NCBI GenBank assembly: GCA_963969365.1
Contig: OZ017754.1
Coordinates: 1,054,001 to 1,118,000 of the forward strand
Length of the DNA: 64,000 nucleotides
DNA from: Asterochloris sp. CNOR1
Lineage: Eukaryota; Chlorophyta; Trebouxiophyceae; Trebouxiales; Trebouxiaceae
Direction of reading: 5' to 3'
The notes beneath the pieces were generated by a model, which was given only the letters and a program-made list of their open reading frames with translations, ran no database searches and had not been told where the DNA came from. Made by a program: the position numbers and the translations under genes. The first letter of the stretch is position 1, and each line of letters starts with the position of its first letter. Shown here one piece after another: positions 5,537-56,300 of this stretch.

Positions 5537-8500
5537 ATGGCAATTGATGATGGAGTGTATCCGCCCACACCCCCTCCTGTAACACAGCATACCACATCTT
5601 CATCACATTCCAACAACCCAGGTGGCTGCATCCCTGGCTCTACATGGCTAGCAACGCTTCAAGCTCTGCTTCTGCCCAAGGCTGAGTCAGGCATGCTATG
5701 TGCAGGTGTAATTGTCTTTCTGCTGCTGCTATGGGCCACCGTTGGGCACAAAGTGGCTTCCAGGTCAGTTCTGCCCTCTTGTGTATTGGCTGCTACCTGC
5801 AGCCTACTGGACGCCACCCTTTTCTGTGAGCTTGCAGCCTGCCAGCCTGAAGCTTGAAACAGCGGCCTGTGTCTGGCAGGCTTTGTACCTGCATCAAGTC
5901 AACAACCCGCAGGAGCCCTGCTGCAGGCAAAATTACTTTGGCGAGGGCAGCATGGCCTGCATCATGGGCCTGATGATGGGCACCATCCTCCTGGCCTCCC
6001 AGGAGCTTCTTGGGAAGGCCACCCTACACTCCATGCTCACCTTCAACCCCGGCAACTTCTTCACGTGAGGCAGCTTGCATGGCAGGATCACTGCATTTTG
6101 GCAGATGCTGACAGCAGCAGTCGACACCACAGGCATGCAGCTGCACAAGCACAGCCAGCTCTCGGCAGCCCATCCAGCTGTGCCCACCACAACCTCCTGG
6201 GGATGAGATGGAGTGCTGTCTGAGTTCAGACAGCCTCGTGACTGCCTGCCACCCTGCAGTTGCTGAGTCCAGCTAATACTCTGCAGCCAGCGACCTGCAG
6301 CCAACCCCCTGCGCTGTCTCCCTGCAGGTACTTCCTCCCCCCCATCATTTTCTTCGCGGGGCTCTCTGTCCGCAAAAAGTCCTTCTTTCGCAACTTCATC
6401 ACAATTGCATCCTATGGCATTGTGGGCACCTACATCTCCTTTGCCATCATCGTCTGCTGCCTGCTCATCTTCAAGACCACAGTTGGCTTCCTGACCACCA
6501 GGGTGAGCCTTTCCTGGGTTGGCGCACGGCTCTTGTGGTACAACATCACCATGTGATGTGGGTGTGCTCTGGTGCCCTGGGTGGACTCATGGTGAGGTCC
6601 CTGCCTTGCACTAGGATGAGCCTGGCATGCAACTGGGCCCAAGGCATGACCACTGTTCGGCCACTCTTGGTGGTGGTGAGCCTGCTCTGCAACTGGCGCC
6701 CAGGGTGAACCCTGCTCTGGGCCTGGCCTAGGCTTGGTGAGTTTTCATAGCCCATATCTTGCACAAGACGGAGCCTTCTTGAGAACCAGTACCCAGGTTC
6801 AACATTTGATTGCAGGCTCTGGTATCATGAAAATGCTCGTGCAGTGTCCCTGCTGCCCAAGGGCCATACACTATTGGCCCTGCAGCCAAGCAGCGACCAA
6901 CGTGCAACCCACTGTGGAAGCCAGTCCCACCACGGGCTCCTATTTGCGCATGCACTTGCCTGTCCATGAGCCTGAGCAATGTACACCCTTTAAAGTTGAA
7001 AGAGCACATGATGCCAGCAACCCCTTGGGGAAGGCATTTTGCTTGGAGTGTAGCAGGGACCTTCACTTGAGGTGCAGGCAAACGAACTCATGTAGCAACA
7101 ACCTGCCGACAACTAGCAAGCGCCAGTTGGCAGCTCTGACCAACTGCCCTGCTGCAGGACATCCTGGCCATGGGGGCCATCTTTGCCACCACAGACTCGG
7201 TTGCAGTGCTGCAAGTGCTGAACCAGGACCGCTGCCCAATCCTCTTCAGCCTGGTCTTTGGGGAGGGAGTCATCAATGACGCTGTGGGCGTAGCGCTGCT
7301 GAGAGCCATCCAGGTATCAACATGGGGACACCCTGCAAATGAGCGCTGAGAGTGATTTATGTGCTCGAAGTGATGTGCTTATGACTCTGGTCAGGGCCGC
7401 CCAGAGCATATGTTTCTCCCACAGTTGGCAGTCTATGCTTCATGCTGCGGACAGGTGGGAGTGAGCAGGTCACAAACGCGCCTGTGCCAGGTCATTTTGC
7501 GACCCTCAGCGGTGGTTAGCACAGTGATTTCCGCCGCAAGGCAACGTGTTCCTTGGCTGGAAAGCCAGAGAGAGCATGCCAAGCAGGAGGCTGGCAGCTT
7601 CAGGTTCAAGCAACCAGCCTGCCTGATTATCTCAAAAGGGTGGCTGTCTTTGTCTGCCATGTTAGTCAGGCACTTCACCTCTTCAGATGCCGACCTATCC
7701 CCCTGCTGCCAATGCAGGAGCTGGGTGTGGTGCCTGACATCACAGCAGCCACCTTCATTCTGATCATACTCAACTTTGTGTACCTCTTCATTGCCAGCGG
7801 CATGCTGGGCCTGGTGTTTGGGCTGGCTACAGCCCTGCTGCTGAAGGCCTCTCCTTCGAATCACGTGCATCAGGTGGGCTTTGTCGAAACACCTCGGCAG
7901 CAGCACAAGTCTTCTGAAGCAGCTGCTATTCACCTGTTATGACACTTCATGGCCCTGCAACTCCACAAGTGGGCATGCCTGGGCAGCCTGCATCTGCAGT
8001 CACAGTGCGCCGTCCACCTCAGTACTGAAACCTAGCCGTGAAAGCAGCAGTCTCTTTGGGTGGCTTAGTCAAGCAGCAACCCTGCATGTGGCTCGTCAGC
8101 CTCCAAATGCTCAGACAGGACTGCTGCTGTCACCACATTGCTTCTTCAATCCTGGCAGGAATTCCTTGCTTGCTGCAAGAGTCTGCCAGCTGCCTGACCT
8201 CCCCCCTGCCTTACAGGCTGTCAGCATGGTCATCATGCTGGCCTACCTGTCCTACCTTGTGGCCGAGCATTTTGGTTGCAGCGGCATCGTGGCCATCTTC
8301 TCCTGCGCAGTTGTCATGTCGCACTATGCAATGTACAACATCCCCCGCGCCACCCGGCGGGCCACCCGCCACACGGCCGAGGTGTTCAGCTACCTGTGCG
8401 AGGGCGCCATCTTCCTGTATGTAGGGCTGGACACCATTGACCCTGTCACGTGGGAGGTGGGTGTCTTGTACTGGCTTTTGGTGGTGTGTGCTCAGCCGTT

Positions 8501-11500
8501 GGCCTAGTGTCATGAGCTGTCAGTCCTGGCTTCTAGGACTGGACACCATCTACACCGGGGGATGGGGATCCTGTCATGTCTGTCTTCCAGCTGGCCGCTG
8601 CTGACTCTGTGAGTGCAGCCACAACCAACTTGTTACGCAGGAAGGGCAGTGACAACGGTGCCCAGGCCCTCATCCAGTCGGATGGCATCCTGACCACAAG
8701 TATGTGGGCCTGGGCACCGTTGATCGCCACCTGAAGCAGTTGTCAGCAGGTGTTGGCGCATCCTGTCTATGCTTTCTGCAGCTTTGGCACCGGGCCTGAG
8801 GCCTCCCAGGGTGCCGTCATCAGATCTCACACTGCCTCGCCACGGTTGCCCGCTTCCACATGGGAGGTGCTCAGATGCTTGGGTCATGCTGACTTCTACT
8901 GTTGCAATGCTGCAGGTCTAGGTGCCCTCTTGCACAGCTGGTAGATAGGTTGCATCCAGTGCTGCATCTGCCAAGACTTGCAGTCCTCCAAACCCAGAAC
9001 CGGCCATCCCTGCCGCCTGCAGAACAGCGAAAGCACCAGGATCTCTTTCAGCTTAGCAGCCATGGTCATTGTGGTGTGCCTGGGGGCGCGTGCCACCTTC
9101 ACATTTGCGCTGGCTCGGCTGCACAACAGGTGGCGCCCAGAGACAGTCAGCTGGAAGGAGCAGGTCATCATCTGGTGGGCACCATTGCTAGACTTCTGCT
9201 GCTGGTGCACAGCCCTACCCCCTTTCACTGCAGATGTGCCATTGAGCTCTCATGTGGCGCAGCCTGCCACAGCCGCCCCTGGAGCTGCCCGGTGAATGAC
9301 GCCCTGCATACCACCACTGCAATCACCCTGCAGCAGGCGGCGCCAGAGTCTTCTGCCTGGTGGCATCACCATGTGCACTGCAGGTGGTTGGCAAGCACCT
9401 GGGGCTCAATGTCTGCAGTGTTGGTGTACACCAGCAAGCATTGCTGCCTGACAGCTTGAGTGGCTCTATTTTGTGCACGTGATTGTAAAAGCCCTTTCCA
9501 TGCAGGGTCAGCAGGCACGTCCTTGACCAGCGCCCTTAGGGTGCTGCAAGCTGCAGCAGCAACTGCCTGCAAGACAGCAAGCAGGTGCTCGCATTCGGCA
9601 GGCAGTACCGTACCCCATGGCCACTGCAGGTGGTCTGGCAGCATGAGGGGCTCCGTGTCTGTTGCGTTGGTCTACCATTTCTTTGAGGATCCCGAGAGCG
9701 ATCCCCACGTGGCCAGCATCATCGCCATGACCATCATTGTGGTGGTGACCTCCACCATCCTGTTTGGAGCTGCCACCAAGCCACTGCTGGACCTCATGCT
9801 GGGCAAAAGTGAGCCAGGGTGCCCTTCAGGACTGCCGCCCCCATGGTCAGCACTGCTCATCAATGAGCCTAGGCTGGGGCGGATGCTGATTTCCAGTGCC
9901 AGACCAATTGTCATTGTGTGGGAGCTGCCACCCAGTCGCTGCTGAGTCTCATGCCGTACCGGCATGAGCAGAGCTGCAGAGGGTGTCATTTCGGAAGCCA
10001 CTCACAAGAGGTGCAGCTTCAAGAGCACAGCTGCCGGGCTCACCTTATACTGGCCACAGCTACGAACGAACCTCTGCATGCAGTGCCAGCAGCGCCTGAG
10101 CATGGAGCGCTGCCGCACCACCAGCCGCCCCCTGCAGACAGCAGCATGGAGCTGCAGCCCCTGCCCCACGAGGTCGACGGCTTTGGCCCCTCCAGCTTTG
10201 CAGCTGGCAGGCGCGACGATCGTGCCAGCCCAAAGATCGCTGCCCAGGGGTCCAGTGCAGCAGCCCTGGGGGGCTTGCTGCCCACCAACAGCAAGATCCC
10301 GCTCAGCAAGCAGACCAGCCTGACCCAGGGACGTAGTGCTGGGCAGGGGCAGCAATATGGGAGGTCAACTCTGGAGGTACACACAGACGACGAGGCTATC
10401 CAGTTTGCAGACGAGGATGAGGCCGATGAGGACACTGGCCTGATCAGCAGGACGCCACGGCCTCAGGTGACGCCTATACATGGCTGCCGCTGCGGGCAGA
10501 TGCTGCTTGATCGCATGTGGCAGCATGGCTGCTGCTCAGTGGGACACAGCAACAGCACGTGACGCCTGGGCATGGCAAGTGGATGCTGCCCGCCCGCATC
10601 TTGCTTGATCATGGGCAGGACACATAGCCTGAACAGTACCCATTGCCTGGATGACCTGCTGAGTACCATCTATGCCTGCAGCTCGCAGCAGGTGGTAACC
10701 TGCAGTGCGTTTTGCTGGAATTTTGCTGGGCTGTTGCAGGACTTCCTGAGCAGTATGCACTATGCCAGGTCTGCATTGTGATTGCTCCTGTCTGGCAACA
10801 ATGCTGCCTGCACATCTTGCGGGGGCCGCCCTGAGGGGCTGTGGTGTTTTGTGTCGTGGAGTCCAGGTCATTATTGCCTTTGTTGGTGACACCAGCCTGA
10901 CTGGACCGCTGCAGGACTTCCTGAGCAGGATGCTGAGCGTGGGCCGGTATGCAAAGGCGCCTGGCAGCAGCTGGGATGCAGGCAAGGAGCCCCCCCACCC
11001 CTCAGGATACCCGCCTGCCATCAGGACGGGCTACCCTGCGCATCCCTCAGGTGCCGTACTGGCTGCCAGGCTGCCTGCAGGTGCCTGCTGCATACAGCGC
11101 TGCATGCCAGAACGCCTCTGCCAGCTGTGCACCCCTCAGGTGCAGCGCTGGCATTCACCCTGGGTGGGGGTGTCATGCGCAGCTAGGCTGAGTGCTGTGC
11201 TGCCCTTTGCAACGTGCTGCGTTGGGCTTGACCAGGAGGGGCACAACACTGGAGCATAGCTTCCAGGGACTTGCAGCCTGCCTGCAGCATAGCAGCAAAG
11301 CAAGCGCTGCCTGTTCTTTGCCGCCTCAGCAACACTGCCATGCGGCATGAAACCTCCCACACTTGCACTCAGCTTGCTTGCAGAAGGCATTGACCCGGCT
11401 TCACAAGGCACACTTTCCAGGCCCCAGCACATGGACTGCTGGTTGCACCGGGCAATGAGGGGCGCTTGTGTTGCCTGTTGTGCCGCCTATGATGCAGCCA

Positions 11501-12203
11501 GAGGGACCCCTTCATGTGGCACGCACACACTTTCCGCACTTACTGAGCCTGCTTGCGGCAGGCACTGACCTGGGTCCACATTCCACCCTGGTGGTAGTGG
11601 GTTGTGCCTGCTGTGCTGCCTTTGTTGCAGCCAGAGGTCCTGCTTGCTCAATGTGGCACGAGCACATCCCCCACACAGCCTCAGCCTGCTTGCAGCAGGC
11701 ACTGACCTCGCTCCTCCAGGCACTCAGCTTGGGCCCCAGTACGCCCAACGCAGCCCCAGAGGGACAGAGGAGGTGGAGGAGCCTGACATCGTGGACACCC
11801 CCATGCACCGGCGGATGCACATGTGGTGGAGCGCTTTTGACACCAAGTATATGCAGCCTGTTTTTGGTGGTGAGTGGCTCAGTAGCTGCCTGCCAGCCAG
11901 GGAAGCGCCGCATGCGGCTGCATGGTCTCAGAAGCATGGCAAAATGTAACCATGGGCTGCCTGGAATCCACTGCATGTGGCTGCATGCTCCTGGCAGCTT
12001 GGCCAGGTCATGTGTGTCGCGGCTGCTTCTGTGGTAGAGTGCTTGGACCCAGATTGCAACACCGACACTTAATGGCAGTAAGTGCCGGGGGTGGCTTCTG
12101 CATTGACTTCTATGTGCCAGGTTCCTGTCCACCCTATTGCTGCCTCTTCGGATGTGCAGAGCCTGCAACCTGCTCAGAAACGTCCTGTGCCAAGGGTTGC
12201 TAA
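5537..12203 (+). CDS. CPA1/NHX-type Na+(K+)/H+ exchanger
   Basis: Electroneutral cation/proton antiporter of the NHX/NHE family, expected in endosomal, vacuolar or plasma membrane. Thirteen phase-consistent exons give 651 aa: 5537-5621, 5706-5763, 5927-6064, 6328-6502, 7158-7313, 7718-7873, 8217-8456, 9023-9174, 9630-9808, 10084-10466, 10867-10946, 11760-11869, 12160-12203. Residues 29-47 form a first hydrophobic helix. FLPPIIFFAG (about 95) is the amiloride-site region. ATTDSVAVLQV and FGEGVINDAVG (about 162-196) carry the Asn-Asp pair of electroneutral CPA1 members. SMRGSVSVALVY (exon 9) is the conserved Arg segment. The cytosolic tail (about 447-651) is Ser/Gln/acid-rich, with WWSAFDTKYMQPVFG matching the NHX C-terminal signature. 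The start Met at 5537 is the first in frame. Exons 11 and 13 are the least certain: an alternative last acceptor near 12238 would end the protein in SMWP. The introns hold several decayed exon copies. Confidence 0.9.
8532..8740 (+). repeat. Two decayed copies of the 3' edge of NHX exon 7
   Basis: The end of exon 7 (about 8418-8456) encodes YVGLDTIDPVTWE. Downstream in the intron, about 8532-8560 repeats the GGACTGGACACCAT core, and about 8700-8735 reads YVGLGTVDRHLK in the same register. Both follow the real donor. They are open only over short stretches and have no clear coding role. Confidence 0.7.
9384..9433 (+). repeat. Duplicate of the start of NHX exon 9 (ghost or alternative exon)
   Basis: It is preceded by a CACTGCAG acceptor like that of exon 9 (9630). 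Joined in the same phase to exon 8 it reads WLASTWGSMSAVLVY, against WSGSMRGSVSVALVY in the real exon: same length, no gaps, 8 of 15 residues identical. After the Tyr the two diverge, and this copy reaches a stop about ten codons later without an obvious donor. The conserved Arg is a Trp here, so a product using it would probably not transport. Confidence 0.75.
10731..10770 (+). repeat. Decayed copy of NHX exon 11
   Basis: About 10731-10770 repeats the 3' half of exon 11 (10867-10946), including CTGCAGGACTTCCTGAGCAG with one or two changes, and a GT at the equivalent donor position. It lies about 180 bp upstream of the exon. Confidence 0.65.
11345..11760 (+). repeat. Tandem repeat of about 140-160 bp, roughly 2.7 copies, before NHX exon 12
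   Basis: Each unit contains a CTTGC(A/G)GCAGGCA(C/T)TGACC-like block, a GTTGTGCC-rich block, a CAGCCAGAGG-like block and a GTGGCACG block. The last partial unit runs into the real acceptor of exon 12 at 11760, whose CAGCCCCAGAGGGACA resembles the CAGCCAGAGGG of the earlier units. The copies differ by many substitutions, so the array is not recent. Confidence 0.7.
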
Positions 12204-13556: not shown

Positions 13557-13779
13557 GTAACAGATAACCGAGTTCAGCGGTTGCTCAATAAACCATCACA
13601 TGAGTGCAGAATGTTCCCACTTGTCCTTCTGGCACCGAGAAGCGGAGTTGGAAGCTCAACATAGCTGAGTTCTGAGTCGTCAACCAAGGCTTGATCCGCA
13701 TGTGATTTACAGACTGCCCTGCTTCCAACAGCATTTGTCACACAGCTTTGAAACAGTACAGAAGGGGGTTAGAGCTGTG
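13557..13779. promoter_or_regulatory. Short divergent intergenic region, likely shared promoter
   Basis: The start codons of the DUF952 gene (minus, 13556) and the double-USP gene (plus, 13780) are 223 bp apart. Both 5' untranslated regions and core promoters must fit here unless the transcripts overlap or start upstream inside each other. An upstream in-frame Met at 13702 would shorten it further. No TATA motif stands out. Confidence 0.5.
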
Positions 13780-16700
13780 ATGACAGAGAGGCGGATAGCA
13801 TTTGCTGTGGCCCAGTGGAGCAGCGATGCTACTCTGTATTCCTGGACATGGACCAAGCAATTTTTCTTGCGGGTGAGGCCACGTTAATTGCTGGCAGTGC
13901 TGCTGCATCCCGCACCATGCAGTTCAGCATTGCCATGGGACACTGTGCAGCCTGCCAGCACGCTTTGTCATAGGCAGCGCACCTACAAGCTTGGCAGCAT
14001 CTCAGGTGGTGCCACCTCTACCAGCAGCAGATGTGCCTGTGCTGCCTCTGCAGCACAGATTGTCAGACCTGTTCAGCATGACAACCCTCAGCTCATGCTG
14101 GCGTTGCTGCATGATGCTAAGATGCTGCGAATAGCTGAGCAAGGACGCCCTCAGCTTCATGCTGTGCCTTGCGTGAAATCGTGCTGCTGACCTGCAGAGG
14201 CAGTCCGACCAGCTGGGCAAGGACGCCTTGAGCCCCCTGGACAACCTTTTTGTGGTCCACATCAAGCAGGGTCGGGACAAGGACACCACCCGCCGCTGGG
14301 ATGCTGGGGGCCCGCTGCTGCCCAGTCTGCAGACTGCATTGGCCAACTATCCTCACCAGCTGGTGGAGTTGGAGGTGAGCTCTTGTGTTCTGCAGCTGTG
14401 TGCTGGTGGGGTGGCAACAGCTGGGTTCAAGGGGTGGAGACGCTCCCCTGCTGGCATGCACAGCCTCCCAGCCTGCACATTGCTGGGTGCCGGCCAGCTG
14501 TGTTGGGTGCAGCGAGACAACGAATGGGCCTGCTTCCTAGACATAATATCACTTTGTGCCAAACATGAGGCTAGTGGGGCCAAAAGTAGGTCCTATGTCT
14601 TGCAGCCCTTGCAGTGAATAATGGGGGGGACCAAAAGCGTGCTGAAAGTGTTCTGAGAAGATGAGGAGCTGCCTGCTTGCTTGCACAGCTCCACACAGTG
14701 CACCAGCGTGGTGTGGGCCAGCTGCATCACGGTGCAGGAGGATGTGGGGGAGCCCGTGACGCCTAGCCTCAAGATGCTGTCCACCAGCTGGTGCAGCTGG
14801 AGGTGGAGGCAGGCCTCTTACACTTCTGCCTGGGGCAAAGGCAGGGGATAGGCTGTGCCTGTTCCGGCTTGCCGACCTTGGCAATGTCTAGCATGGCGCG
14901 AGCAAGTGACCTGCTTGCCTTGCCTCTCACTTCGTGTTGTCAATGGGCCTGGAAGGGCAGCAGATTAGCAGCCACAGCTCAGCCTTTACACCAGCTCGTA
15001 CTTTGCGCTGCCAGCACCCTTGTGCGCTGTCACCTCCATGTGCTGTGCTTTCATGCAGCAGCCACCTCCAGCTGCAGCATGTGTTTGACCAAGTGAGCTG
15101 AGAGTGACAGGCCTGTCTGCACTGCTGCAGCAATCCCAGTCCGTGCACGGCACTCTGCTGGAGTTCTTTGAGAAGAACAACATGGACATCATGATCCTAG
15201 GTAGACTGTAAAGCTTGTGGCAGCCTGCATGAAACCTGCAGTGCCAGCGAGACTGCCTGCGGAGATAGCAGGCCTGTGGAGGCCATTGTCATTGCAGACC
15301 ACCGGGGTCCAACGTCACAAATTTTGCTGCACACATCACCCTGCTTGGAACCTGCGCTGTCTAGCCAGGCCGCTCGCTCAAACAGCAGGCTGGAGCAGTT
15401 TCGCTGCTGTGCCTGCATGTTCAGCAGTCAGCTGGCTACACACCTCCTGCAAGCGCCACTGCGCCTCATCTTGAGCCCTGGTGCCCTGCAGGCAGCAGGG
15501 AGGACAAGAAAGCGGTCAACAGGATTGTGACGGGCAACTACATTGGTAGTGTGAGCGCGCACCTCTACTACAAGGCTGCTTGCCTCATCGTGCGGCCTGG
15601 GGTGAGGCCTGCTGCAATAGTCTCATCCTGCCAGGTGGCCTCAAGGCTGCCTGCCCCTGTCTCATCTGGGATAGTGTTCCGGGTCATTCACAATAGCTTG
15701 GTCCATGAAATCTGGCAGATCCATCCTTTCTTGCAGGGCATGTGTGGATGTGCTTGCCTAGACGTGATGTGCATTTGTTGCGTGTCCGGGGCCGACCAGC
15801 TGAGCAACCTTCATCAGAAGCAGCAGCAAGATTGACATTGCTCTCATGAACACTGATGTGCCCTGCCCCTGCCCTACAGAGCGCCCGCACGGACAAGATG
15901 CGCATCAAGAGCGAGAAGAGCCTGACTGCACTTATGGAGGAGCACTTGGTGAGCAAGGTGGCCCCAGTCTGCAGATACCGTTTTGCAGACTCTGCTGCGT
16001 ACTGGCACCACAATCCAGCCTAGGTGCCACCCAGCTTCCCTGTGCCTGGGCGCACGGCCAGTGCTGTGTTACTTAAGATGTCTGTTCAAGTTAGCGAAGA
16101 ATTGGCCAGGAGACCAGATCTCCAGGGCTCTGCAGGGGAACATCTGTGCTGTGCGCAGTCCAGAGGCCATGATATCACAAACTGGCGTGTGTTAGACTAG
16201 GGCAAGTGCCTGCTTGCGGGCACATCTGTGCCCTGCAGTCTGCAGGTCTATGTGGAGTGTGCTGCTGCCCAGGGGCTTGAAGCTCCTGCTGCTGATCACT
16301 GGCTGCTGCACCTCATTCCTGCAGGGGAACAACTCGCTGCCGTACGGCTTGAAGGCCTCTATGCTGGGAGCGATGCGCACGGAGGCTCCCCGCAAGGTGG
16401 CTGTTGCCTACGACACGCTGGAGGCGGGGCGCCAGATGCTGGCCTGGGCTGCGCGCTTCTGCCTGCAGCGCAACGATGAGCTGCACCTTGTTCAGTACAA
16501 CAAGGTGGGCCAGTGTCGACATGACGTCTATAGGGGTGCAACGTGTCGCAAAAGGGTACTCACGCTTGTGGGGAGAGATGCTCGCTGGGGCTGAGTGTAA
16601 AAGGCAGAACATTGCACAGCCGCATGTTGCTGTCTGTGCAAGGCAGCAACTGAGATAGCACAGTGCCTCAGGCTAAGTGCGGCAACACTGACATCCTGCA

Positions 16701-19130
16701 ATGTGGCCTCTCAATTTGCTGCCTGGCCTTCAAGCGGCTGGACCTTGCGCAGATGATCCGATCACTGAGATGATGTTATCATGCCCTGACAATTTTACAG
16801 TCTGCGGAGGTGGGCATACTTGCAGGCTTTCAAACAGAACGACCGCCATCTCATCCAATTCCTCCTGTCTGGCACATCTGACGAGGGGTGCAACTGTCCT
16901 GCAGTCGCTGGACAAGAAGATGAGCATCAAGCAGATGAGCATGACAAAGGGGCGGCAGAGCTCTGAAGGGGAAGAGCGTGAGATAAAGCTGGCGGCCGAG
17001 GACCTGAGCGACCTGTCCCTGCTTGTGCCTGTAGCAGCATCAGTCTGTGTCAAGGTGAGGCACACATTTCTTCACCTGCAGATCGGCCAGGCCTTTGAGC
17101 AGTACCTTGACCATCAAGGATGCACAGCAGCCTTGGAGTGAATGAAATCCCTTGTTCTGATTGAGGCAGTTGGCATGCATCTGCTCCTTGCAGATGCTCA
17201 AGCTTGCTCTTGGTGGTGGACCACCTAGCAGCAGCTAGCGTGCGATCGTGACAGCTTCTCGGTGTGTGTGTGCTGCACGGCACGCTTTCCAAGAGGTGGC
17301 CCAGGGGTATTGCTTGAATCCCTCTCAGCAGCATTGGCAGCTGATGCTGCACTGCTGTATCATCGTGAAAGGCAGCGTTTCTTTTGTGTTTGTGTTGTGG
17401 CCAGAGGGGCTCAATAGCAGGTGATGGAGCGACTTGAGGCAGAGCTGCGACCTGAAGCTGCTTGTTGTGCCCAGACTGACTTCAACGAACCTCTCATCAT
17501 AAAGTGCCTCACTGGCTGTGTCCCGCTGCCTGCTGCCATCATCTCTCTCTGCTGCTAGTGCACGAAAGCTGATTGCCACCTGCCTCCTGTATGTCATTGC
17601 CAAGCATCAGGGCATGGAGGGCAATGGAGCAGGGTCCAGTCATCTCACTAGGCTGCCGGTGACCAGCAGCCTGTGTTGCGCCCTGCAGGGTGACGCCAAG
17701 CAGCATTGTGCCTCAGGGCCAACTTCATCGGCGGCTGCAGCGCTGCTGTGCCAAGTTTGAGGGGCCGCTGGTGCTGTCTGCAGGGTGATGCCAAGGAGCA
17801 GGTGATGGAGTACCTGGAAGCCGAGTCCATCGACTTGCTGATGGTGGGTAGCGCCGTCAGCAGCCGCCTCAGAAAGGCTCTGGGCGGGGGCGGCGGTGTG
17901 GGGTCCCACTTGGTGCACCATGCAGCCTGTCCGGTGCTGGTCCTGCCAGTGCATACATCAAGTGAGCCGACCTTCCTGCATGCTGCTGCCATGGGCTGCC
18001 TGTGTTAATGCACATCTCAGGTGAGCTGGCCCGCCTGTAAGCTGTGTCTGTGTCCTGGCCTCATGGGTGCCAAACCTTCTAAGGGAGCTGCCTCCTGTTG
18101 CTGCAATCCGTTGCTGCATATCCCAAGTCCACCGTGTTGCTTACAATGCCTGAGGCTGCCTGTTGCTCTGTTTAGGGTCAGACTATTGGCTGCCCACCCC
18201 AAGCTGGTCCTGGCAGTTTGCCCCTGCTTCCTGTCATGGACACTATGCAGCCTCCTGCCGTGAAGCTTCCTCCTTATGGTTTTTATCCTGCTATTGGTCT
18301 TTGGGGCATCTTTGAGCCATCCCATGGCACCTGACACAGTAGCTGGCTCTGCAGGCTTCATGGAGGCTAACTCCCTGACAACCAGCCAAGAGCTGGCTGA
18401 ATTGGAGCAGGGAGGGGGCTCCCCACCTGATGCAAAGAGCGTCAAGCCAGCAGGTGGGCATGCTTACCACCAATGCCGCTCATGTGCGGCCCCACATCAG
18501 GCATTGCTGCTCCTGTGTGTCATGTCTTGGGCAGGTCAAGCGTTCATCGTTTAGGATCTGAGGATGTCTTTGACCTACAGGCAGCAGCAACAATTCCACT
18601 TTGAGGCGGTGGCCCTCCTCAGGGATCTCGAGACATGTGGGTTGCTGCTCCACTTCGCTGCTTGTTGCCGGAGGGCACTTCTGCCCGCCATGCTAGTTGT
18701 GCATTCCTGACATGCAGTCTGAGCCAGGCCCCATGGCTGCCACACCGTCAGGAGTCCTTGGGAGGTCATCGGAACAGTCGACCCGGACTTCAGACGGTGG
18801 CGACTGGCGGCCCACTAGCCCACAGATTGAGCTGGTGGCAAAGTTGCAGCGGCAGCTGCAGAGCAAAGATGCAGAGATTGCTGCCCTCAAGGTCAGCTAT
18901 GCTGCAGAGAGGGTGTTTCTGAAAATAATGCTGACAGCTGTCAGACAGCTGTCGGTTATGGCTGCACTTGAACACATTCTCCAACCCATGGCTGTTTGGT
19001 CGCCCTGCTGCAGGAGCAAATACTCCAGCTCCAGGCGGCCGCGCAGCACAGCACCGGCCAGGCCCATCTTGATAGCAATGATCCCATATTCTTGCCCCCA
19101 TCCTTTACAGAACGTGCATCCTCAGCATAA
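13780..19130 (+). CDS. Tandem universal stress protein (two USP domains) with coiled-coil tail
   Basis: Twelve phase-consistent exons, 490 aa: 13780-13872, 14198-14374, 15131-15200, 15492-15601, 15880-15948, 16325-16504, 16905-17054, 17784-17961, 18355-18453, 18581-18636, 18718-18891, 19014-19130. USP domain 1 (about 1-173) opens RRIAFAVAQWSSDATLY, has DNLFVVHIKQG and ends with the nucleotide-loop strand IMILGSREDKK and TGNYIGSVSAHLYYKAACLI. Domain 2 (about 195-365) opens RKVAVAYDTLEAG, then GDAKEQVMEYLEAESIDLLM and VGSAVSSRLRKALGGGGGVG, ending HHAACPVLVLP, close to the classical GxxG(9)G(S/T) ATP motif. The tail (about 366-490) is Ser-rich and then helical: LVAKLQRQLQSKDAEIAALK followed by EQILQLQAAAQ, likely a short coiled coil for dimerisation. 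The start could be 13702 instead. Two intronic ghost copies lie at 14741 and 17688. Confidence 0.85.
14741..14815 (+). repeat. Decayed copy of the 3' end of USP exon 2
   Basis: DVGEPVTPSLKML here matches DAGGPLLPSLQTA in exon 2 (14198-14374). After a frame change CACCAGCTGGTGCAGCTGGA matches the exon's CACCAGCTGGTGGAGTTGGA, followed by a GGTG donor-like position. It lies about 400 bp downstream of the real donor. Confidence 0.7.
17680..17705 (+). repeat. Decayed acceptor-side copy of USP exon 8
   Basis: GGTGACGCCAAGCAGCA after a CCTGCAG acceptor at 17688 copies GGTGATGCCAAGGAGCA at the start of the exon at 17784, which encodes GDAKEQ. The similarity stops after about 17 bp. Confidence 0.65.
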
Positions 19131-27000: not shown

Positions 27001-28762
27001 TGGCGACACCAGCTGCTATTGTGACTCCTTCTGGCCCTGAGGTGCTAGCCATCCTCTCACGTCAATGACTGACTCTTCCAAGCCAGTGGTCTCACCCAAG
27101 ATGTGGAAGAAGGTCAGGTGGTCTTCCTGGAGGCGCGCGTCCACGCTGGGCTGCCAGGTGCGCCCACCATCTGCGGAGGCCAGCAGGCCGCTGCGCCCGT
27201 CCAGAAAGTGGCCCATCAGCAGGCGCAACCACTCGCGGCGGACCCCCGACCCAACGCCGCTCTCGCCTGCAGGTGCCCAGGGGCAGTGGGCGTCTGAGGG
27301 AGTGTGCCGCTGCTGTTGCCAATCACGAACCGGCTCGCTGCACAACCCCCCCAACCCCATGCCTTCCCCGTCTGCCTGGGCACCGCGTCACAGGGCACCG
27401 TCGAGGATGCATGACATTTGGCTCTGATGCTGAAGGCAGGCCCTTAAGCATAGAGTGCTGGTACCCTCCACAGGGCAACCTGAGCAGCACATCCACTGCA
27501 CATCCACTGCAGCATGCACAGCTGCTGGCAGATGCCTGGCGGCCTGGGCCCCACCTGCAGAGCTGCGGGTCCCCAGGCTGTCCACTGCAACCCGTTGGGC
27601 CGCTAGAAGCTGGAACTGCCTCTTTCAGACAATGCCGCTGCAGATGGTCTCTCAATCCCAGGCCACCAGAACCAGTGCTAAACAGCACACGCCAAGGCAG
27701 CCAGCCCCGCCTACACCTGCAGGCTGACTTTGGCGACTAGCCCAAGTTGTTGCTGCCCCACCTGTACCCAAGGCTCCTGCCCAGCACTGCAGTCGGCCCA
27801 AGCAGCACTGAGCTCGCCAATCATTGCAGCCCACCTGCAAAGCGGACCTCCAGGCCGCCCGAGATGTCGGCTGCGAACCCGTCGCGCTGCTGGAAACTGC
27901 GGCACATGTCCTCCAGCATCGACATGCGGGGAACCAGCATGGTCATGCGTGACGCAGAGTTGGCACCGGCCATGGCCCCCTGAAGCAGCAGCAGCTTGCT
28001 GCTGGCTGGCAGGAAGCCCTCCACCTGCAGGCAGGGGGATGCCGGGTCAGCAGCTGGGACTCCAGGTGCCTCATGCGGTGGGTGGTGGAATCTGGCTTTG
28101 GGCTCTGCAGACCATGCACCTCCTGCTGGAGCAGAGACCGATGAGGTCTGCTGTGTATTGAAGCCTCCTCCTCTGAGCAGTGAAAGCTCGCAGGTCAAGC
28201 TGCCCACATCAACGTGCAAGGGCCCTCCTCCCCTTCTGAGCAGCCTGAGCTCACATGCCACAGCCAGCTCCCCACCAAAGATGCCCGACAGGCGCCTAAC
28301 CCACAGACCCAAGAAGTCACACAGCTGTTCCCCTAGGCAGCCTGGGCTCACATGCCAGGCTCACATGCCAGGCTCAGCTCTGTTCCAGGACACCTCTTGT
28401 GCTCGAGAAGTTCTTCCAGTTCCACAGCTGCCCCACAGGATGACCTTCACAGCAGACTGGGCTCACATGCCATGCCCAACTCCAGACAGCAGACGCCCTT
28501 CTGGCATCTGCCAGGCACGCCGCATCCAGTGCAGCGTTGAGCGGCCCAGCCAGGCGCAGCACCTCTGTCTGCAAAAAGGCACCCCGCTGGAGCAACCGAG
28601 CAAAGGGCGACCGCTCTGCATTCTGCTGGACGTCCAGGATGGCTGCTGTCATGAAGGCGGCCATGCGGGCTGCGTGGGCATCTGCGCCAGGGCCTGTAGA
28701 AACATACACCCCACGACAGCTCAGACAAGGACAGGAGTCATTGCTGACTGTGTGTGTGTGTG

Positions 28763-28825
<63 letters not shown>

Positions 28826-42199: not shown

Positions 42200-45100
42200 T
42201 TATTCAGTGGCTTCAGGAGACTCTGCTGCGGCGCCATTGGTTCCCGCTGCAGCTGGTTGGCCACCTCCTGCGGCCTCGTGCCGAATCGTGATCTGCACAA
42301 ACAAAATGTCAGTGAGCAAACATGACAAAACAAATGCCCATCATGTCAGAGATGAAGCACCATCAGAGCTGCCAGCCAGGAAGCGTCACCATTGCTGCAA
42401 GTACACTGCAGGCCGCCACTGTTGCACAGCGGCCCCACAGCACTCCCTGCCCCCACTGCCCACAACAATGTATGGCTGCAGCAGCGCACTGCATTCAGAC
42501 CCTATGGAATCCGGCCTGGCCTGCCCCTGTGGCAGCCACATTGCCACTCTGCCGGCCACACGAGCAATACCAGGACTGCAGCACGGCATCCTGGTGCACA
42601 TTGTCAACCAGTTCCCCTCATGCACCCTGCTGCCTGCGTTCACGTTGCTGGGCCCTAAGCAGGCAATTCTGTCGACCTTCCCTGAGCGGTCAACTGCTTG
42701 CCCTCATCTGCTGTCCACAAACTGTGACGCTCCAAACGTCAATCTGCCCTTTTGTCTACAATGAAAGCCCCGACTTGCGCCCGTCTTGTTGGGCTGCAAC
42801 ACGACAGGCTCATCCGTTCAGGCCACCTTTCTAGCCACAAGCTGCCTATTCTCTGCTGTCCCCAGACCCTGCAAACCCTGCTGGTTTGCAAACCAGCAGG
42901 ACTGCATGCACAGCACAAGCTGTGCTCAACTCTGCCTGAACCCTTCAAGAACCCCGGGCCCACCTTGCTAGGCCGCAAGAATGCAAACTCGTCATTCCGT
43001 GCCCTCTTCCCGAGACGCTTAAGTTGCTTGCCCCGCTTCTGCAAGTTGAGCCGAGTGTCCAGCGTGAGGTATCCTGTGTACTCAGGCCGCTGATGCAGCA
43101 CAAAAGTCCGCTTGTGCTCCTCTGTCTTGATGTCGTAGATGTATTCCCGTATCCATTCATAGTCACGCTCCTCAGCATCCCTGCAGGGCACAAAAACAGC
43201 AACCGGTAAGCGAGGGGCGCAGATCCAGCAATGTCCCTGCAGGGCACAACTTCAGCATGGAGGGTGCAGGACACTGTTTCAGCAACAAAGTAGGATGGAT
43301 GAGTGCTAATCTGCAGCAGCCGTCTGCATGGCAAGCCACGTGCTGCTGTCACTGTCAAGCTGCCGTCAGCCACGCTGGGGTGGGTCCACTCGTGCTCATG
43401 CTACTCGATGTTGCAGGGCAAGCCAGGTAAGCGCTAAGCGGGGCGGCACAACTTAGTGCTGAATGATCCTGCATCTAACTAGCACTTTGTCTGCAGAGCA
43501 TGCAAAGAGCACACGGCACTAGCACTTCTGCTCGGCGCCAGGCTGCTACAGGGGCCCTCAAGATGCCCAGGGAACAAGCGTCCAACCTGCCAAACGCTCA
43601 ACATCACAATCAAAGACCCAAGCTCTCAGCCTCCACCCCACCTGCTGAACACTCCTGCCTTATTTGGTAACTTCTTGGGGGTGGTGCATGGTGCAGAGTG
43701 CTGCAGGGGGTATGGCGCTGAAGACCACAGTACAGATCCTGTTTCACAAAGTCCCCCATACCCAGCCCGCTGGAGCTCAGGCGTGGGAGGCATGTTGAGG
43801 GAGGTCCACCTGTTGAGTGGCGGGTCTCGCCTTGTCTGGGTCATGCTGGGCCACAAAGTGCCTTTCAGGTGCAGGGGAGGACCACTCACAGTCAAGATGC
43901 CCATCTCACCTGCTAGACGGTCCCGCCTCTTCAGGGTCATCCTTGGGCACCAGGAAGGCTACCATCTTGCTTTGGCCCTTGCCAGCATCAGTTTGGACCA
44001 CATATGACTTCATGTACGATGACTCTGCAGCACATCAGGCAGCTTATTTCTGTGTAGTGCAGAACATGGCTGCTTTAAGCCTGGCAGATCTTGGGAGGGT
44101 GGCATGGGCACCCAGCACCATGCGCGGTGCACACTGTACGAGGGCTGAGGTCCAAGCACCAAAGCAACTTCAGAAGTGTGCCCCGCCATCTGCATGCATA
44201 GCAGGGCTGCAGACGCTTATGAGTATCGATGCAGCTGTGCACACCTGCTGCCTTCTGCCGCTTCTTGGGCGGCATCTGGGTGAGCATGGGGTGGTCAGTC
44301 ATGGGGTCATCGTCAAAGGCCATGTTGACAAAGTTCATGACCCGGCCATCCTCATCAGGAAGCACTGCAGGCAGAGGCAGGGGCTCAGCCCAGTGAGTGC
44401 TGGCCATACTGGTGGAGCCCCTGCATCCATGCAGCTCAAGTCCCCTTAATGGGACATGGGGTCACCAGGCACAGATAGAGCTGGAGGGCCGCGAACTGGG
44501 GCCCATGCAGCTCAAAGCCAGCAATCAGCACTCACCAGGCAGCACTTGCACGGGCTTCAGGTGTGGCTTGGTGGGGTGCACAGGCGGGCGCTGGGCAGCC
44601 TTGAAGCTGCTCTGCAGAGCAGACAGGGGACTTGGATCAGCAGCAAGAACAGGGGCCCAGTCTGAGAGCCTCCAATCATTAGGCAGGCCCTTGGACTGAG
44701 CTGCTGATTGGTCACTTCAGGCTCTGCACAACTGACCCAGCAGGCCGCAGGGCTGGCTGCTACCCTGTGCAAGCCCACCGCACCCTGCTGCAACGCCGCA
44801 AACACAGCCATGCCCACTTCAATGGTGTCCACAAGACCTCAGGTTCGTCCCCCGTTCCAGCAGCCAACTCCCCCTCACAGCAGCAACTCACATGTAGCAG
44901 CCATGTTGGACAGCTCCTGAAGCAGGAGTGATTGCCTGCCAGCCTGTAGGTTGGTTGCTCCGACCTCCAGGAACTCCAGCCAGCCTACCTCTATGGAGTC
45001 CAGCAGAGCCTCAGGGTCGTCGGCCATCTCCTGCTCCTCTTCTAAAGCAGCCTCCAGGCGCTTGACATCCTTCTCAGTCATGCCCCGCTCCTTCTGGTTG

Positions 45101-47389: not shown

Positions 47390-50300
47390 ATGTCAGCGCC
47401 AGACCACAATCAGATACGTATCCAGCAGTCTTTTCAAGGAGATGAGGGCCTGGGAAAGCAGGTAGCTAGGCCCCAGTCTGACCTGAAAGGCAGAGGCTCT
47501 GCTGATCGGCCATCCTTATATGTCTCGAAGGTCTGGTGGTGGCAGGAGACTTTGCACACACACAGCAGCACGAGCTATCATCTCAGGAGTGGCCGGCACA
47601 GACGCTATGTCATTTTGATGGCTGCTGGATGCTCATGAAGCTGCATTTTGCCGCATGCAGGGAGAGCCAGTGACACAACGGCATCTGGCTCTACCCGAGC
47701 AGCCGGAGCGGCATCAGCTGGGTGCTGCCCCCAATTCCCAGATAGCGGGGCTGCATGAGCCAGAGAATGGCTTGGAGACTTCACCTCCGCTGGGAGCTCT
47801 GCGATGCAGCCTGACGGGTCAGGTAAGCTGACTGCCAGGCTTTCGGGAAAACTGTTGCAGAGGTGAGCTTGCCCAAGCTGTTAGTAACCTGCTGGGCCTC
47901 AGAAACTTGGTGCCAGAGCATACTGTAGCTGACCCCCACCAGTAGAAAAGGCATGCTCCACAGCTACGGATGCTGGGCACAATGCTGCTGTGCGCTTGGA
48001 AGATGTAAAAGGCCACATCAGACCGTCGGCATTGGCCTGCGCCCCAGCTGCACTGTGGCGTACTGCGAGAATGGCTGTGAGCAAGAATGCATGTTTCCTC
48101 AAGCCAGCGCTTGCTTCTTGCAGGCAGTTACGCAGCAGCAGGCCACACTGCCAGTGGCGCTGCACAACTATTGCAGACCGCAGGCCAAGAACAGTCGCAT
48201 CATCACAGGCAACGCAGTCAGAGTAGAGCCACTGGCTGCAACAGACATGGCCCCCTCTGCGGCGTCATGTCTGCACTCACAGGCCTGTGCTGCTTTGGAG
48301 CCCCAGCTCCTGGCCGCATGTCCTGGCTCTGCAGTGCTGCCAATGCTGGGCCAGGCCCAGCAGAGGCCTGCAAACCTCGATACTATTCTCCTGCAGCAGC
48401 AGATGCAGAGACTTGGCTCACGGCAGCAGGCCGGCCTGGGACAGTCTGCTCAGGGACAGTGTGAGCAGCCAAAGCTGCCTCACAACGCTGTGCCTCAAGT
48501 GCCGGGGCAAGATGCAGGGTGGCAGCACACTGCCCAGCTCCAGCTCGCTGCTGAGCACCAGGGCCATTCTGCACCGCTCAGGATTACAGAGCTGTCTGGC
48601 AACCAGCCGGCAGGCGCTGGAGCTGCTAGTAGCTGCTTGTGTGCTGCTGGGTTCAGTAAGGAGGCTAGCCCTGAGGAGGAGGAAGCAGGAGCTAAGGAGG
48701 CTAGCCCTGAGGAGGAGGAAGCAGAAGCTGAAGATGACTTGGCTGCTCCTGCCAGCAGCGGGGCAGTCAGAGAACAGGCTGCAGCCGCGCCTTGTGCGGA
48801 TGCAGCAGCAACTGAGGGCGTTGCTGCCCCTGGCGGTGCACCAGGCGGTGAGGCATCAGCAGCTGTCGAGGATGCCACAGCTCCCGACAGCAGCAGAGCG
48901 CACTGGGAGGCGGCAGCAGCCAGGGAGGCTGCTGCTGCAGACGGCAGCCCCACTGGAGCAGCAGGCGCAGGTGCTGCTCCAGGAAGCAGCAGGCAACATG
49001 CGGCTGCCAGTGCTCGCTGCTGCAGCTTCACTCAGGTGACGGCAGCAGCAGCGGACATGGTGGGCGCAAGTGCAGAAGCAGCTGTTGAGGAGGAAGAGGG
49101 CCGTGGCCCTAGTCACAGGCGCAGGCGGCGGCGGCAGGTGCAGGACGAGCTGGCTCCAGGCGCGACCCTGGAGGCCAATCTGGGCCTGGCTGGCGGCCGC
49201 ACAAAGCGTGTGCCTGGGGGCGACCCGCTGGCGGTGAGCTTTGCAACGTTTGCTGGGGGCCTGCAGCATCAGCAGCCTGCCAGCAGCACCCTCCTGGCAG
49301 GCATGGCCCTGACTGGCTGTACACGCAGTAGCTCAAATGCATCCAGTGGTGTTTGTGGTGGAGGCAGCCTGCCAGCGACTCCCTGATGTCAGGACTGATT
49401 TCTGGCGCTGCTTGCAGGGAATGCCAGGGGCTTGCTGATCCACTTCTGCTCTGAAGCCCCACAGTTGCTGCCTGTGTGTCTGAACATGGGTTGCATGAGC
49501 TCAAAGTGAGACTTGTCAATGCACAGAAGGACGCACTGCTCTCTGCTGCGCCCTAGTGCATCCTTGCGCTCCCTGCTGCCAACCCTCAGCCCTTGGCCGT
49601 CAGCATAGTGTCTGCACAGCTCACTGGTCCTGCCAGGAAGCCTGTGCGGCATGGTCCAGCATCGCTCTGCATCTTGGAGCTTTTGCTGCAGAACCCGCGC
49701 TTCAAGGGCTTCTGCGACATGATCCGTAACAACAGCGAGGAGTTTGAGGCGCAGGGGCGCGTGCTGCGTCTGAAGCAATTCATCCGCGCAGACGCCAAGC
49801 AGGCCCAGATCGATGCAATTCTGGATGCGCTGGAGGACAACACGCGGGTGGAGGCGCTGTACATCCAGAACTTTGAGATGGTGAGCATTGCATCGCCTGC
49901 CATCGTCCTTGGGATGGCTGAAACAGGGCGGGGGGTCAATTTGCAGTTCTGCTGCATTTGGAGTGAGCAATGGCTCCTGCAGGTCACGACTGTTGTGGGG
50001 TTGGGTGCTGATTGTGTTCTGTGTTGGAGGGCTTTGTCCTGCTGCTGACTTGCTGTGCATTAGGGAACAGCACGCACATAGAGATGCTGTACAGTCAGAG
50101 GTCTGACATGAGGGGGCGCATGACTGCTGCAAATTTCCTTGTTGATGTACAAAAAAAGTCAGAGTGTTACAGCTGACTTGATGTCATGTCGTGGTGTCAG
50201 TAGAGGCCTGTACAAACAGCTTCACGCAGCGGTGGGTGCTGTTGTGTGCTCTTGTATTGGAGAAGGGAGTGTGGCCTGCTGCATGTCGTGATGCAGGAGC

Positions 50301-53300: not shown

Positions 53301-56300
53301 GCTGCGGAGCTGAACTGGCTCAGCTGTCCAGTGGCTACCATGCCAGACTTCCTGCATGCTGCAGATAGCAGCCTGCCTCGGGGTTGTGTTTTCTAGGTGA
53401 CCACAGCTGCTTCATTTTTCTTGATTGGCCCATGTCTTGGAACGACATGTACACGCTGCAGGGCGCAGCGGAATGCCCTGGAGGTGGCTGCTGACCGCAT
53501 CCGCCAGCAGATGAAGAAGGCACAAGAGCAGTCCAAGAGGGCTGCCCGCATGGCTTGCCGCATGGAACCAGCCGCAGCCCCTGCAGCTGCTGCTGCTAGC
53601 GCTGGAAATGCAGAGGATCGCGTTGCAGATGTCTATTGGGAGGGGCCACGGGCTATAGGCTGGCGGCTGTCGGTGCTGTGGCCGGACGACCAGCAGATGT
53701 ACTCGGGCAAGGTCACTGCCTGGTGCCGCAAGCACAACTTCCATCTGGTCACCTACGATGACGGTAAGCCCCTGGTGCTGTCTTGGAACTGTGTCATGCA
53801 GCAGCCAAAACATCTATGCATGCTCCAGATGGTCACATGTGACAATGGTGAGTCCTGTGAGCTCTTGGCACAACCCTGCAGCAATGTCAGGCAGAAAGCC
53901 ATACGGGCCCCTACAGTGCATGCGAGCTGTTGTGCCTCTCGCTGCCAAGCGCTGCTCTGGGATCCAGTCCTGGCCTAGCAGTGGCAAGCGCAGGTTACCC
54001 TTGTACCCTTGTTGATGGCGAAAATTGCTGTGCAGGTTGTAGGCGTGCATCGCTGCTTTACAGCTGACTCATGACATCTTCAGAGCTGCTGTGCTGCTCT
54101 CTATGCCTTGTGAGCTGTGCTGCATTCTGCTGTCTCCAGGTCTGTTGGCAGGCAGAGTGCACTCATGCTTGTTCTGATCTGTGCCAGGCCAAGCCGCTTC
54201 CTGAGCAGCCCTGCTCAGCCTGGCTCAACACACAGAGCTAGCTCAACAGTCATCTCAGCAATCCTGCTCAGCCTGGCGGTGCAGTGATGGTAAAGCAAAA
54301 CCTGTTCCACAGGCCTTGGCCAGCACTCTATCATATATGTATAGTCTGTGTGCCACTGACTTTATCTTAATGCTCTGTGCAGGGCAGGTCGAGACCCTGG
54401 ACCTCAATGAGGAGGTTGTGCAGTGGCACCAGGCTCCCAAGCCTTCACAGAAACGGGTGTTGCACAAGAAGGGCGCCTCAAGGGCACAGCGTGCACCGCA
54501 TCGTGCCACAGCTGCGGCTCCTACCTTGCCAATTGCGACAGGGCGCAATGCTCTGGTGGTGGCAGGTGAGCTGCGGGTCACCCTCAGTGATGCCTGCTGC
54601 CCTTGCATACCTGAGCATTCAGCTGTCAGCATGCAGTCAACAGCCTGAAGGGCAGAGCAGCATGAAAGGCAGCAGCCATCATAGAGTGCGCCTCATACCT
54701 GGCTTACCAGCCATGCAGTGCTGCAAGTGGTTCTTGACATCATGCTGCCTGCGTGAGGTTGCATGCTGCTGCAGTCTGCTTTGCTTTAAGGGTTCTTGGA
54801 TTGTCGCCCTGTCCAGCATGACCTGCGATTTGTCTTGTGAGCTGTTTTGGCTTTGAATGCCAGCCTGTCCTCTTGCAAGCTTCTGGCCATGGGCATGCTC
54901 TGGCCAGATGCCTCCTATGTGTAACCATATGGCTCTCCTGCAGATCATGTTTCTGAGGGTAAGGACGTCCAGTCGTTCCAGCGATCCCTGGCAGCAGGCA
55001 GAGAGCAGGGTCGCATGCTGGCAGCCACCGTAGCGCAGCGCTTCAGCCTGCTTGTAGCAGAGGCTGAGACAGTGCCCGCTCTTTCGCCGTGTATGCCTCC
55101 CCACAATGACCTGTCTTTCGACAAGCTGCCAGCGCCAGCAGATGGGCAGGGTGCCTTTGCGGGAGCAGACCTGCCACGCGTGCGCGCTGTCTGGCTGGCT
55201 GAGGCTTTGTACAGCCTGCTGGGCCCTGATACAGTACGCATGGCACTGCCTCCGGCAGGGCTGGCATGGAGGGGATCTAGCAGCAGGCCTTTGAGGCTGC
55301 CTGCCTCCAGCGGCCCTCCTGGCAGCAGGGTGGGTGCGCTGCAGGTCAGGCCTGGGGCAGACGCCTCGTCTGAGTCCCAGCAGGCTGCAAAGAAGCCGCG
55401 CAGGTAGGCTGCAGCCATGCTGCAATCTGACATAAAGCTGCATGACGCACAGGCACAGGGACCTGCTATGCACTCCTGTGGCAGCATTTGATGCTGTCTC
55501 GCGTGAAGGTGAAGCGGCAATCAGGCTGAAGGTGTTTGGCAGGCAGTCACATCAGCACAAGCCTCCCTGGAACAAACCAGAGTTCTCGAAGCAGCAGAGC
55601 ATGGGGCTGTCTGCCGTCGTCTCCAGGCCCCTCCCCCACGCTCTTCCGCTACGCCCCAAGCTGCCCTTGCCAGCATTGCAAGAATGCTCGACTTCCCTGC
55701 GCAGGTGTGGCCTTCCCTGCAGGTGCTGCAGAGCGCCAGATTACAGAGCTGTGCCACAGCAGCCGCTGTGAGCTGTGTCAGAGCGTGGTCCCAACATCTG
55801 AGCGCTCCAAGGTTTCACCCGCCATGGTGACTGTGCAGGGGCGCATCATCCCCCAGGGGTGCTGACAGCCAGCCATCCACCACCAGCGGCGGCCAGGCAG
55901 GCACCGGCTCTGCCGTAGGTTCGCCCCACAATGCCTTCCAGTGCAGGAAGCTGCCCCGCCTGGCTGTGGCAGCTGGTGGCCCAGAGGTGGCCAGGCCGGG
56001 AGCAGGCAGCCGCTCAGGGACCAGCAGAGCAGAGTTGCCTGGGGCCAATCATGCTTTGGGGTCCATGGGCTCTCGTAAGAGGGCCTCACTGCAACACCGC
56101 AGCAGCACGCCCGCCCAGGAGGGGGGATGTGCGCTGGCCAGTACCGACATGCAGGAGAGCCAGTCTGGAGGTCAGCCCACATCGATGCATGGCATCTGGT
56201 GTCAGCGTAGGCACTCTCACGAATGGGTGAAGGCAGCCTGTAGCCGTCCCTGATGCTTGCAGATTAGGCAGAGCGTAACCTCTTTACAGGGGCTTGCCAT

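Follow-up and report, generated by a model that had tools for sequence, protein, structure and literature searches.

Introns of the green alga Asterochloris sp. CNOR1 probably gain DNA through short same-strand local duplications

The introns of the green alga Asterochloris sp. CNOR1 contain short, decayed copies of the edges of their own flanking exons, lying in the same orientation as the source. Such copies were pointed out in an earlier note on a 64-kb stretch of contig OZ017754.1 (C9:1054001-1118000, the whole stretch being referred to as the window) in six genes, labelled NHX, USP, ANK-HECT, methyltransferase, PAF1 and Tudor/SANT, and were ascribed to local tandem duplication of segments spanning a splice junction. 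When analysing the window together with 100 kb from contig C1 and 100 kb from contig C3 (264 kb in total, from a genome of 56,383,464 bases in 21 contigs), we consider it probable that introns here gain DNA through frequent, short, same-strand local duplications whose copies are neutral and do not create introns.

Genes were predicted with a hidden Markov gene finder, self-trained on the 264 kb without outside data or RNA data, which gave 64 genes, 506 exons and 445 introns; 442 introns with both exons were kept and 312 entered the edge tests (intron at least 150 bp, both exons at least 40 bp). Each exon end, up to 57 or 59 bp long, was compared by alignment with its own intron and with 100 intron stretches of matched size taken from other genes, with z>=4 as threshold. 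Similarity to the own intron was revealed in 41 of 624 junction tests in direct orientation and in 3 of 624 in inverted orientation, distributed as 22/312 direct and none inverted for donor edges and 19/312 direct and 3 inverted for acceptor edges. The excess of direct similarity over dinucleotide-matched controls that the earlier note had predicted is confirmed, inverted copies being far from equally common: with dinucleotide-preserving shuffles (p<0.01, 3.1 expected each) 28 of 312 donor edges and 27 of 312 acceptor edges matched in direct orientation, as compared to 2 and 5 in inverted, and in the window alone the same test gave 5 and 7 of 80 direct (donor, acceptor) and 1 and 2 inverted. 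A stricter subset of the 312 introns (193 in which splice sites are strong and both flanking exons measure at least 60 bp) gave 13 + 12 direct and 0 + 1 inverted matches at z>=4. Edge matches were found in 21 of the 49 genes having tested junctions, and intron length is greater where exon-anchored copies are present (median 444 vs 281.5 bp), long introns also offering more room.

To cover more than the exon edges, a scan for local repeats was performed on 379 introns of at least 100 bp, each with up to 100 bp of either flanking exon (E<=0.01), palindromes being kept from inflating the inverted control. Significant repeats in direct orientation were found in 105 introns and inverted ones in 2, with 19/1895 in the other-gene control. 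The direct repeats occur in 27/96, 33/144 and 45/139 introns of the sampled blocks, so that same-strand local duplication as a process shaping introns, as previously suggested, is seen in all three. The share of introns with a direct repeat grows roughly in proportion to length, from 7/85 (100–200 bp) to 20/33 (at least 600 bp). Of 169 repeat matches 80 are entirely intronic; aligned length is 24–124 bp (5–95%) with a median of 50 bp, and spacing 34–293 bp with a median of 104 bp. Segments from the intron interior are copied too (50-bp queries, z>=4: direct 10/181, inverted 1), the corresponding figure for intergenic DNA being 4/209. For 300-bp windows the counts were 39/201 direct, 4 inverted and 3/402 in the control for introns, 8/110, 1 and 2/220 for intergenic DNA and 21/250, 6 and 12/500 for spliced coding sequence. 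In an intron blast, near matches numbered 44 in direct and 0 in inverted orientation and far ones 21, all of them weak; no dispersed intron family was found within the 264 kb.

How often an exon edge is copied depends on how deep in the exon the source lies. At 224 junctions (shift-matched, z>=4) the copy rate was 16.1% at 6 bp, 10.3% at 24 bp, 6.2% at 42 bp, 1.8% at 60 and 78 bp, 0.9% at 96 bp, 0.4% at 114 bp and 0 at 132 bp, with 8/2016 inverted matches across nine positions; source centres 60–132 bp into the exon thus account for 11/1120 direct and 3/1120 inverted. An unpaired position profile showed the same fall, and in the exon-anchored set, consisting of the best pair for each of 63 junctions (36 donor, 27 acceptor), 46 alignments span the junction. 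The collapse of the copy rate with depth into the exon shows that overlap of the copied stretch with the junction is required. The earlier note had formulated a directional rule, with donor-edge copies downstream of the real donor and acceptor-edge copies upstream of the real acceptor; the pattern is present, but for copies inside their own intron it is a tautology and uninformative by itself. The intron across the exon, on the wrong side, gave 0/54 and 0/54 at z>=4, as compared to 20/146 (inverted 2) and 18/147 (inverted 0) for the own intron. The rule is the outcome of geometry, purifying selection on exons and junction overlap.

The peak at the junction is mostly a matter of detectability, one partner being frozen. 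In simulations assuming uniform age, a frozen partner increases detectability 1.89-fold relative to two decaying partners, so that the 5.5% found in the intron interior (10/181) would predict about 10% at junctions, where junction-centred queries gave 11.5% and 13.5% (18 and 21 of 156). A slight genuine preference for junctions may exist in addition; with the interior copied too, a duplication specific to junction-spanning segments, as first proposed, is needless.

The usual form of the duplications is repeat, unique spacer, repeat. This anatomy was studied with strict gap scoring, permissive gaps having made alignments span entire introns. Among the exon-anchored pairs the spacing has a median of 123 bp (5–95%: 60–289), the exon part a median of 34 bp, and 52 of 63 carry a spacer of at least 20 bp between the copies. 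In the 44 pairs used for the spacer-continuation test (19 were too tight and omitted) the spacer recurs past the second copy in 4 at z>=4, as compared to 32 of 44 in a simulated tandem of equal divergence; a 40-bp continuation test gave p = 0.12 (n = 40). It is this failure of the spacer to recur in most cases that defines the form, and a simple tandem duplication with the spacing as its unit, for which the exon parts are also too short, does not agree with it. Spacers resemble DNA within 2.5 kb in 3/44 cases in direct and 0/44 in inverted orientation (z>=4). Tandem arrays are present as well, e.g. the C3 block 43679–43968 (spacings 72/142/212) and the NHX intron region 11051–11695.

When comparing the exon-anchored copies with their exons, from which they diverge by 8–34%, mismatches by codon position were 0.216, 0.221 and 0.290. 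The copy drifts at every codon position and the exon contributes synonymous change, with no sign of coding constraint on the copy. Splice sites could be counted in 54 of the 63 pairs, the 9 without alignment near the junction being omitted, and the core is retained in 37 of them (GT/GC in 20/29 donor copies, AG in 17/25 acceptor copies), nominally slightly above a neutral expectation of 0.60; a splice score of at least 4 is found in 23/54 copies vs 15.5 expected. The suggestion that one site is used and the other copy decays, taken as selected inactivation, is not supported, core retention not being below neutral. There is no preference for shifts divisible by three (17/54 copies, 15/37 of those with an intact core), splice-like motifs are not enriched at the outer ends, and the copies look neutral.

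In the earlier note introns were said to grow, or arise, by local duplication. Growth is supported, but for arising no signal was found in the birth register, i.e. with the shift equal to the intron length, where the end of the exon should match that of the intron and the start of the intron that of the following exon. Mean identity there was 7.73 and 7.68 of 30, as compared to 7.67 and 7.74 in controls, and 0/375 on either side reached at least 18/30, a test in which a birth would be noticed only if it is no older than the detectable copies; in a gapped 60-bp version 4 and 3 of 239 exceeded the 99% control level, with 2.3 and 2.1 expected. Since exon and intron partners in the birth register decay like the copies, births of equal age would have been expected to appear. 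A paralogue of NHX (C2:9411-9633) has exons of 156/156/240 bp in the same order and differs in intron lengths, the matching protein stretches being 39–79% identical; the shared exon lengths suggest that these introns are older than the gene duplication. The interpretation given in the earlier note is on the whole partly supported.

The copies in the window were analysed one by one with a coordinate test against donor and acceptor windows of the own intron, using up to 1000 equal-length intron segments from other genes as control (smallest reachable p ~0.001). Of thirteen coordinates named previously nine hold, two are near misses (30030, 14741) and two fail (44806, 53818). Eight reached the floor of about 0.001, namely 8532, 30601, 43815, 9384, 17680, 38256, 43215 and 10731; as a junction copy 44806 gave p = 0.49, and 53818 falls within a predicted exon (53462–53847). 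Pfam matches were obtained for four of the six named genes (Na_H_Exchanger, 2e-46; Usp, 8.1e-19; HECT, 1.3e-60, together with ankyrin repeats; Methyltransf_25, 4.6e-14), and the names PAF1 and Tudor/SANT were taken over from the earlier note. Features given with an E value below are among the matches listed in the repeat scan.

In NHX, on the forward strand, the donor edge at 8456/8457 (source -44 to +22) has a copy at 8524–8583 (named 8532, p = 0.001) and a second one at 8674–8733 (named 8700, source -64 to -4, p = 0.001), the latter value holding with the intron taken as 8457–9022. The second copy overlaps the predicted exon 8591–8703, which together with exon 8782–8866 was judged false because both are absent from the predicted exons of the paralogue; exon-edge copies inside introns may in this way mislead gene finders. 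A 16-bp inverted repeat (8653–8668 / 8707–8722) adjoins the second copy. Further along the gene the acceptor edge 9615–9675 is copied at 9369–9429 (9367 in the coordinate test; named 9384; 46/61, spacing 246, E 7.8e-8), the exon end 9766–9799 at 9921–9954 (28/34, E 6.9e-5) and the donor edge 11036–11083 at 11125–11172 (34/48, E 1.2e-3), while the acceptor region has two copies, one of 11605–11714 at 11472–11577 (83/106, E 3.7e-15) and one of 11651–11742 at 11340–11430 (65/91, E 1.1e-8). The coordinate 10731 had been regarded as an exception to the directional rule and turned out to be an ordinary copy, at 10726–10758, of the acceptor edge 10901–10933 (acceptor 10914/10915; 29/33 bases, E 1.1e-5).

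USP, likewise on the forward strand, contains copies of the exon start 14206–14233 at 14128–14155 (23/28, E 2.3e-3) and of the acceptor edge 17764–17800 at 17669–17705 (17665 in the coordinate test; named 17680; 29/37, E 6.3e-4), and the donor edge 17927–17985 is followed by an adjoining tandem copy at 17986–18044 (38/59, E 6.9e-3). The coordinate 14741 itself gave p = 0.16, and a weak match to the exon end 14354–14377 lies at 14782–14805 (22/24, spacing 428, E 1.4e-3). An acceptor edge at 21215–21262 has a forward-strand copy at 21091–21139 (36/48, E 4.2e-3).

ANK-HECT is located on the reverse strand and its donor edge 28444–28505 is found twice more, at 28232–28293 (45/62, E 8.9e-7) and 28337–28363 (E 3.0e-4). 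The acceptor edge 29779–29845 has a copy at 30047–30113 (46/67, E 1.4e-5), close to the coordinate 30030, which itself gave p = 0.52. An exon end is also copied twice, as 30830–30876 at 30616–30663 (30616–30646 in the coordinate test; named 30601; 42/47, E 2.3e-8) and as 30804–30862 at 30679–30736 (41/58, E 1.1e-3), and the exon start 31528–31550 at 31633–31655 (20/23, E 4.1e-3). The ANK-HECT intron 28694–28992 harbours a short-period array (28749–28861) with self-matches at numerous spacings between 26 and 60 bp. In the methyltransferase gene the acceptor edge (-27 to +29 around 38315/38316) is copied on the forward strand at 38227–38284 (named 38256, p = 0.001). The PAF1-labelled gene, on the reverse strand, has a copy of its acceptor edge (around 43180/43181) at 43226–43257 (named 43215; p = 0.001, E 3.3e-3) and one of its donor edge 43919–43950 at 43823–43858 (named 43815; p = 0.001, E 1.2e-3), and the Tudor/SANT-labelled gene a forward-strand copy of the exon end 49826–49880 at 50056–50110 (37/55, E 2.7e-3).

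The predicted splice signals are strong (donor CAG/GTGAGC, acceptor CTGCAG/G, the slash marking the splice site), though a self-trained finder may overstate their uniformity; the same caution applies to T, G and C at acceptor positions -5, -4 and -3 in 94–97% of predicted introns and to GC donors in about 5–6%. GTGAGC is scarce on the sense strand of exons (15 observed vs 45.8 by second-order expectation; introns 56 vs 66.1). An enrichment of CTGCAG in introns, 11-fold by single-base composition (399 vs 36), was discarded, the number being near third-order expectation (409 vs 386.5).

Error-prone repair, either of breaks or of stalled forks, is the likely process behind the observed excess of copies, their orientation, their decay without coding constraint, the junction overlap and the spacer. 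In each event some tens of bases (median 50 bp aligned) would reappear in the same orientation, exon-anchored copies typically 60–290 bp off, sometimes directly in tandem and more often with a unique spacer. Such events would be spread along the whole intron and purged from coding sequence, and an event in an exon would be visible only if the duplicated segment overlaps the splice junction, with the extra DNA on its intron side, which would give the directional rule; exon-anchored copies would stand out as their intronic partner alone decays. Repair could proceed by fill-in of staggered ends with captured filler or by brief synthesis from nearby sequence at a stalled fork, and the spacer may be filler or ancestral intron. 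With staggered-break fill-in the junction overlap would arise naturally, and with stalled-fork copying it would follow only if junctions were preferred as templates. Related routes include patch-mediated repair in rice and paired-nick duplication in plants.

Other explanations share parts of this evidence. Spaced copies and spacers unlike local DNA (3/44 direct, 0/44 inverted) would also be expected of free templated insertion from nearby sequence at a random source position, as in repair-mediated duplicates or 'doublets', and a published vertebrate process yields closely linked duplicates (PMC2671141). We regard this as possible though doubtful, given that exon interior within reach is hardly ever the source (11/1120 at depths of at least 60 bp, inverted 3/1120), which differs from the free source position that capture by synthesis-dependent strand annealing (SDSA) would, as we read that model, imply, and that inverted copies are rare here, one duplicated exon in the part of PMC2671141 consulted being inverted. 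Plain tandem duplication of junction-spanning units as long as the spacing, followed by decay, would account for the almost solely direct orientation (105 vs 2 of 379), the clear arrays and the 10 of 63 pairs whose aligned length is at least 0.8 of the spacing; as a general explanation it is rather unlikely, with spacers recurring in 4/44 vs 32/44 simulated and exon sources 60–132 bp deep in 11/1120 vs about 47 that the observed spacings would predict. A rate that peaks at the junction and intron windows richer in repeats than intergenic ones point towards a junction-linked process using splice-site regions as preferred templates, e.g. via breaks that accompany transcription or splicing, or via RNA. 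One-sided decay, however, accounts for most of that peak, the intron interior is copied too, and similarity does not stop at the donor (0.76 at the first intron base, 0.79 at the second), so that spliced mRNA was rejected as template; we hold this process to be improbable, and equally so a mainly intronic duplication favouring splice-junction DNA in one-orientation repeat-spacer-repeat blocks, perhaps coupled to transcription or splicing, under which introns would lengthen from their own edges, decoy splice sites being left behind. That selection maintains the copies as functional alternative exon edges or as regulatory decoys, for which core retention (37/54) and splice scores (23/54) would speak, is very unlikely, as the copies show no sign of coding constraint and no preference for shifts divisible by three. 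Introner or transposon copies have nothing in their favour except the likeness of repeat-spacer-repeat to a long target duplication, and with no dispersed intron family within 264 kb and 21 weak far matches they are hardly credible.

Several points weigh against short neutral duplications by repair as the full account. The gene models were predicted without RNA data and two NHX exons look false. Besides the 10 of 63 plainly tandem exon-anchored pairs, 38% of the top 50 intron-intron pairs look tandem, so that more than one process may act, and the simulations presume modest indel rates; with heavy intron turnover the case against tandem units would be weaker. Identity correlates with spacer length at rho 0.27 (p = 0.035, n = 63) and, for aligned lengths of at least 40 bp, at rho 0.10 (p = 0.55, n = 38), a weak positive correlation that is a misfit with spacers growing by age. 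Inverted matches are few and not nil (4/201 intron windows at E<=0.01, 5/312 acceptor edges in the shuffle test). The paired test reaches 16.1% at the junction, above the detectability-corrected ~10%, and introns are richer in repeats than intergenic DNA (39/201 vs 8/110, Fisher p = 0.0045, odds ratio 3.07), a contrast that a uniform mutational process alone would not predict.

Intron growth is usually studied with close relatives, intron DNA diverging past recognition. With the exon as a frozen reference, a single genome is enough to locate edge-overlapping copies, orient them and date them roughly, which gives a measure of local duplication and intron turnover for species without sequenced relatives and separates intron growth from intron birth, merged in the earlier note.

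Judging from titles and abstract openings, none of the open-licence papers listed describes decayed exon-edge copies as something that introns have in general. Introner elements (PMC9860276) resemble the present case in that intron DNA is gained by inserted copies and differ from it by forming a dispersed family of many near-identical introns, of which none was found within the 264 kb. The small tandem duplications formed from staggered breaks by CST/Pol alpha-primase (PMC8355091), with overhangs of about 50 nt and induced overhangs down to 43 bp, are likewise direct repeats of tens of bases that need no homology; they are tandem, whereas most pairs here carry a unique spacer. Intron gain in Drosophila from duplicated proto-splice sites (PMC2891723) and the Rogers model, which is described in PMC4974935, have in common with our data a local tandem duplication that interacts with splice sites, but the birth register tested here gave no signal. 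The closest of these systems are the potato RdRp gene and the vertebrate duplicates. In potato an intron was gained by tandem duplication across an intron-exon boundary (PMC4974935), the duplicated segment bearing splice signals as it does here; a new intron resulted there, whereas in Asterochloris DNA is added to introns as decaying copies. Pace et al. 2009 (PMC2671141) described repair-mediated duplication by capture of proximal DNA in vertebrates, the proximal copies having a median of 147 bp, with 753/1136 within 3 kb and 4/824 sources with partial exon/intron. Those duplicates are, like the ones reported here, short, closely linked, non-tandem and in many cases intronic, few of them containing partial exon/intron, while the copies in Asterochloris have a median aligned length of 50 bp, are spaced mostly by less than 300 bp, are almost all direct and derive from sources that overlap the splice junction.

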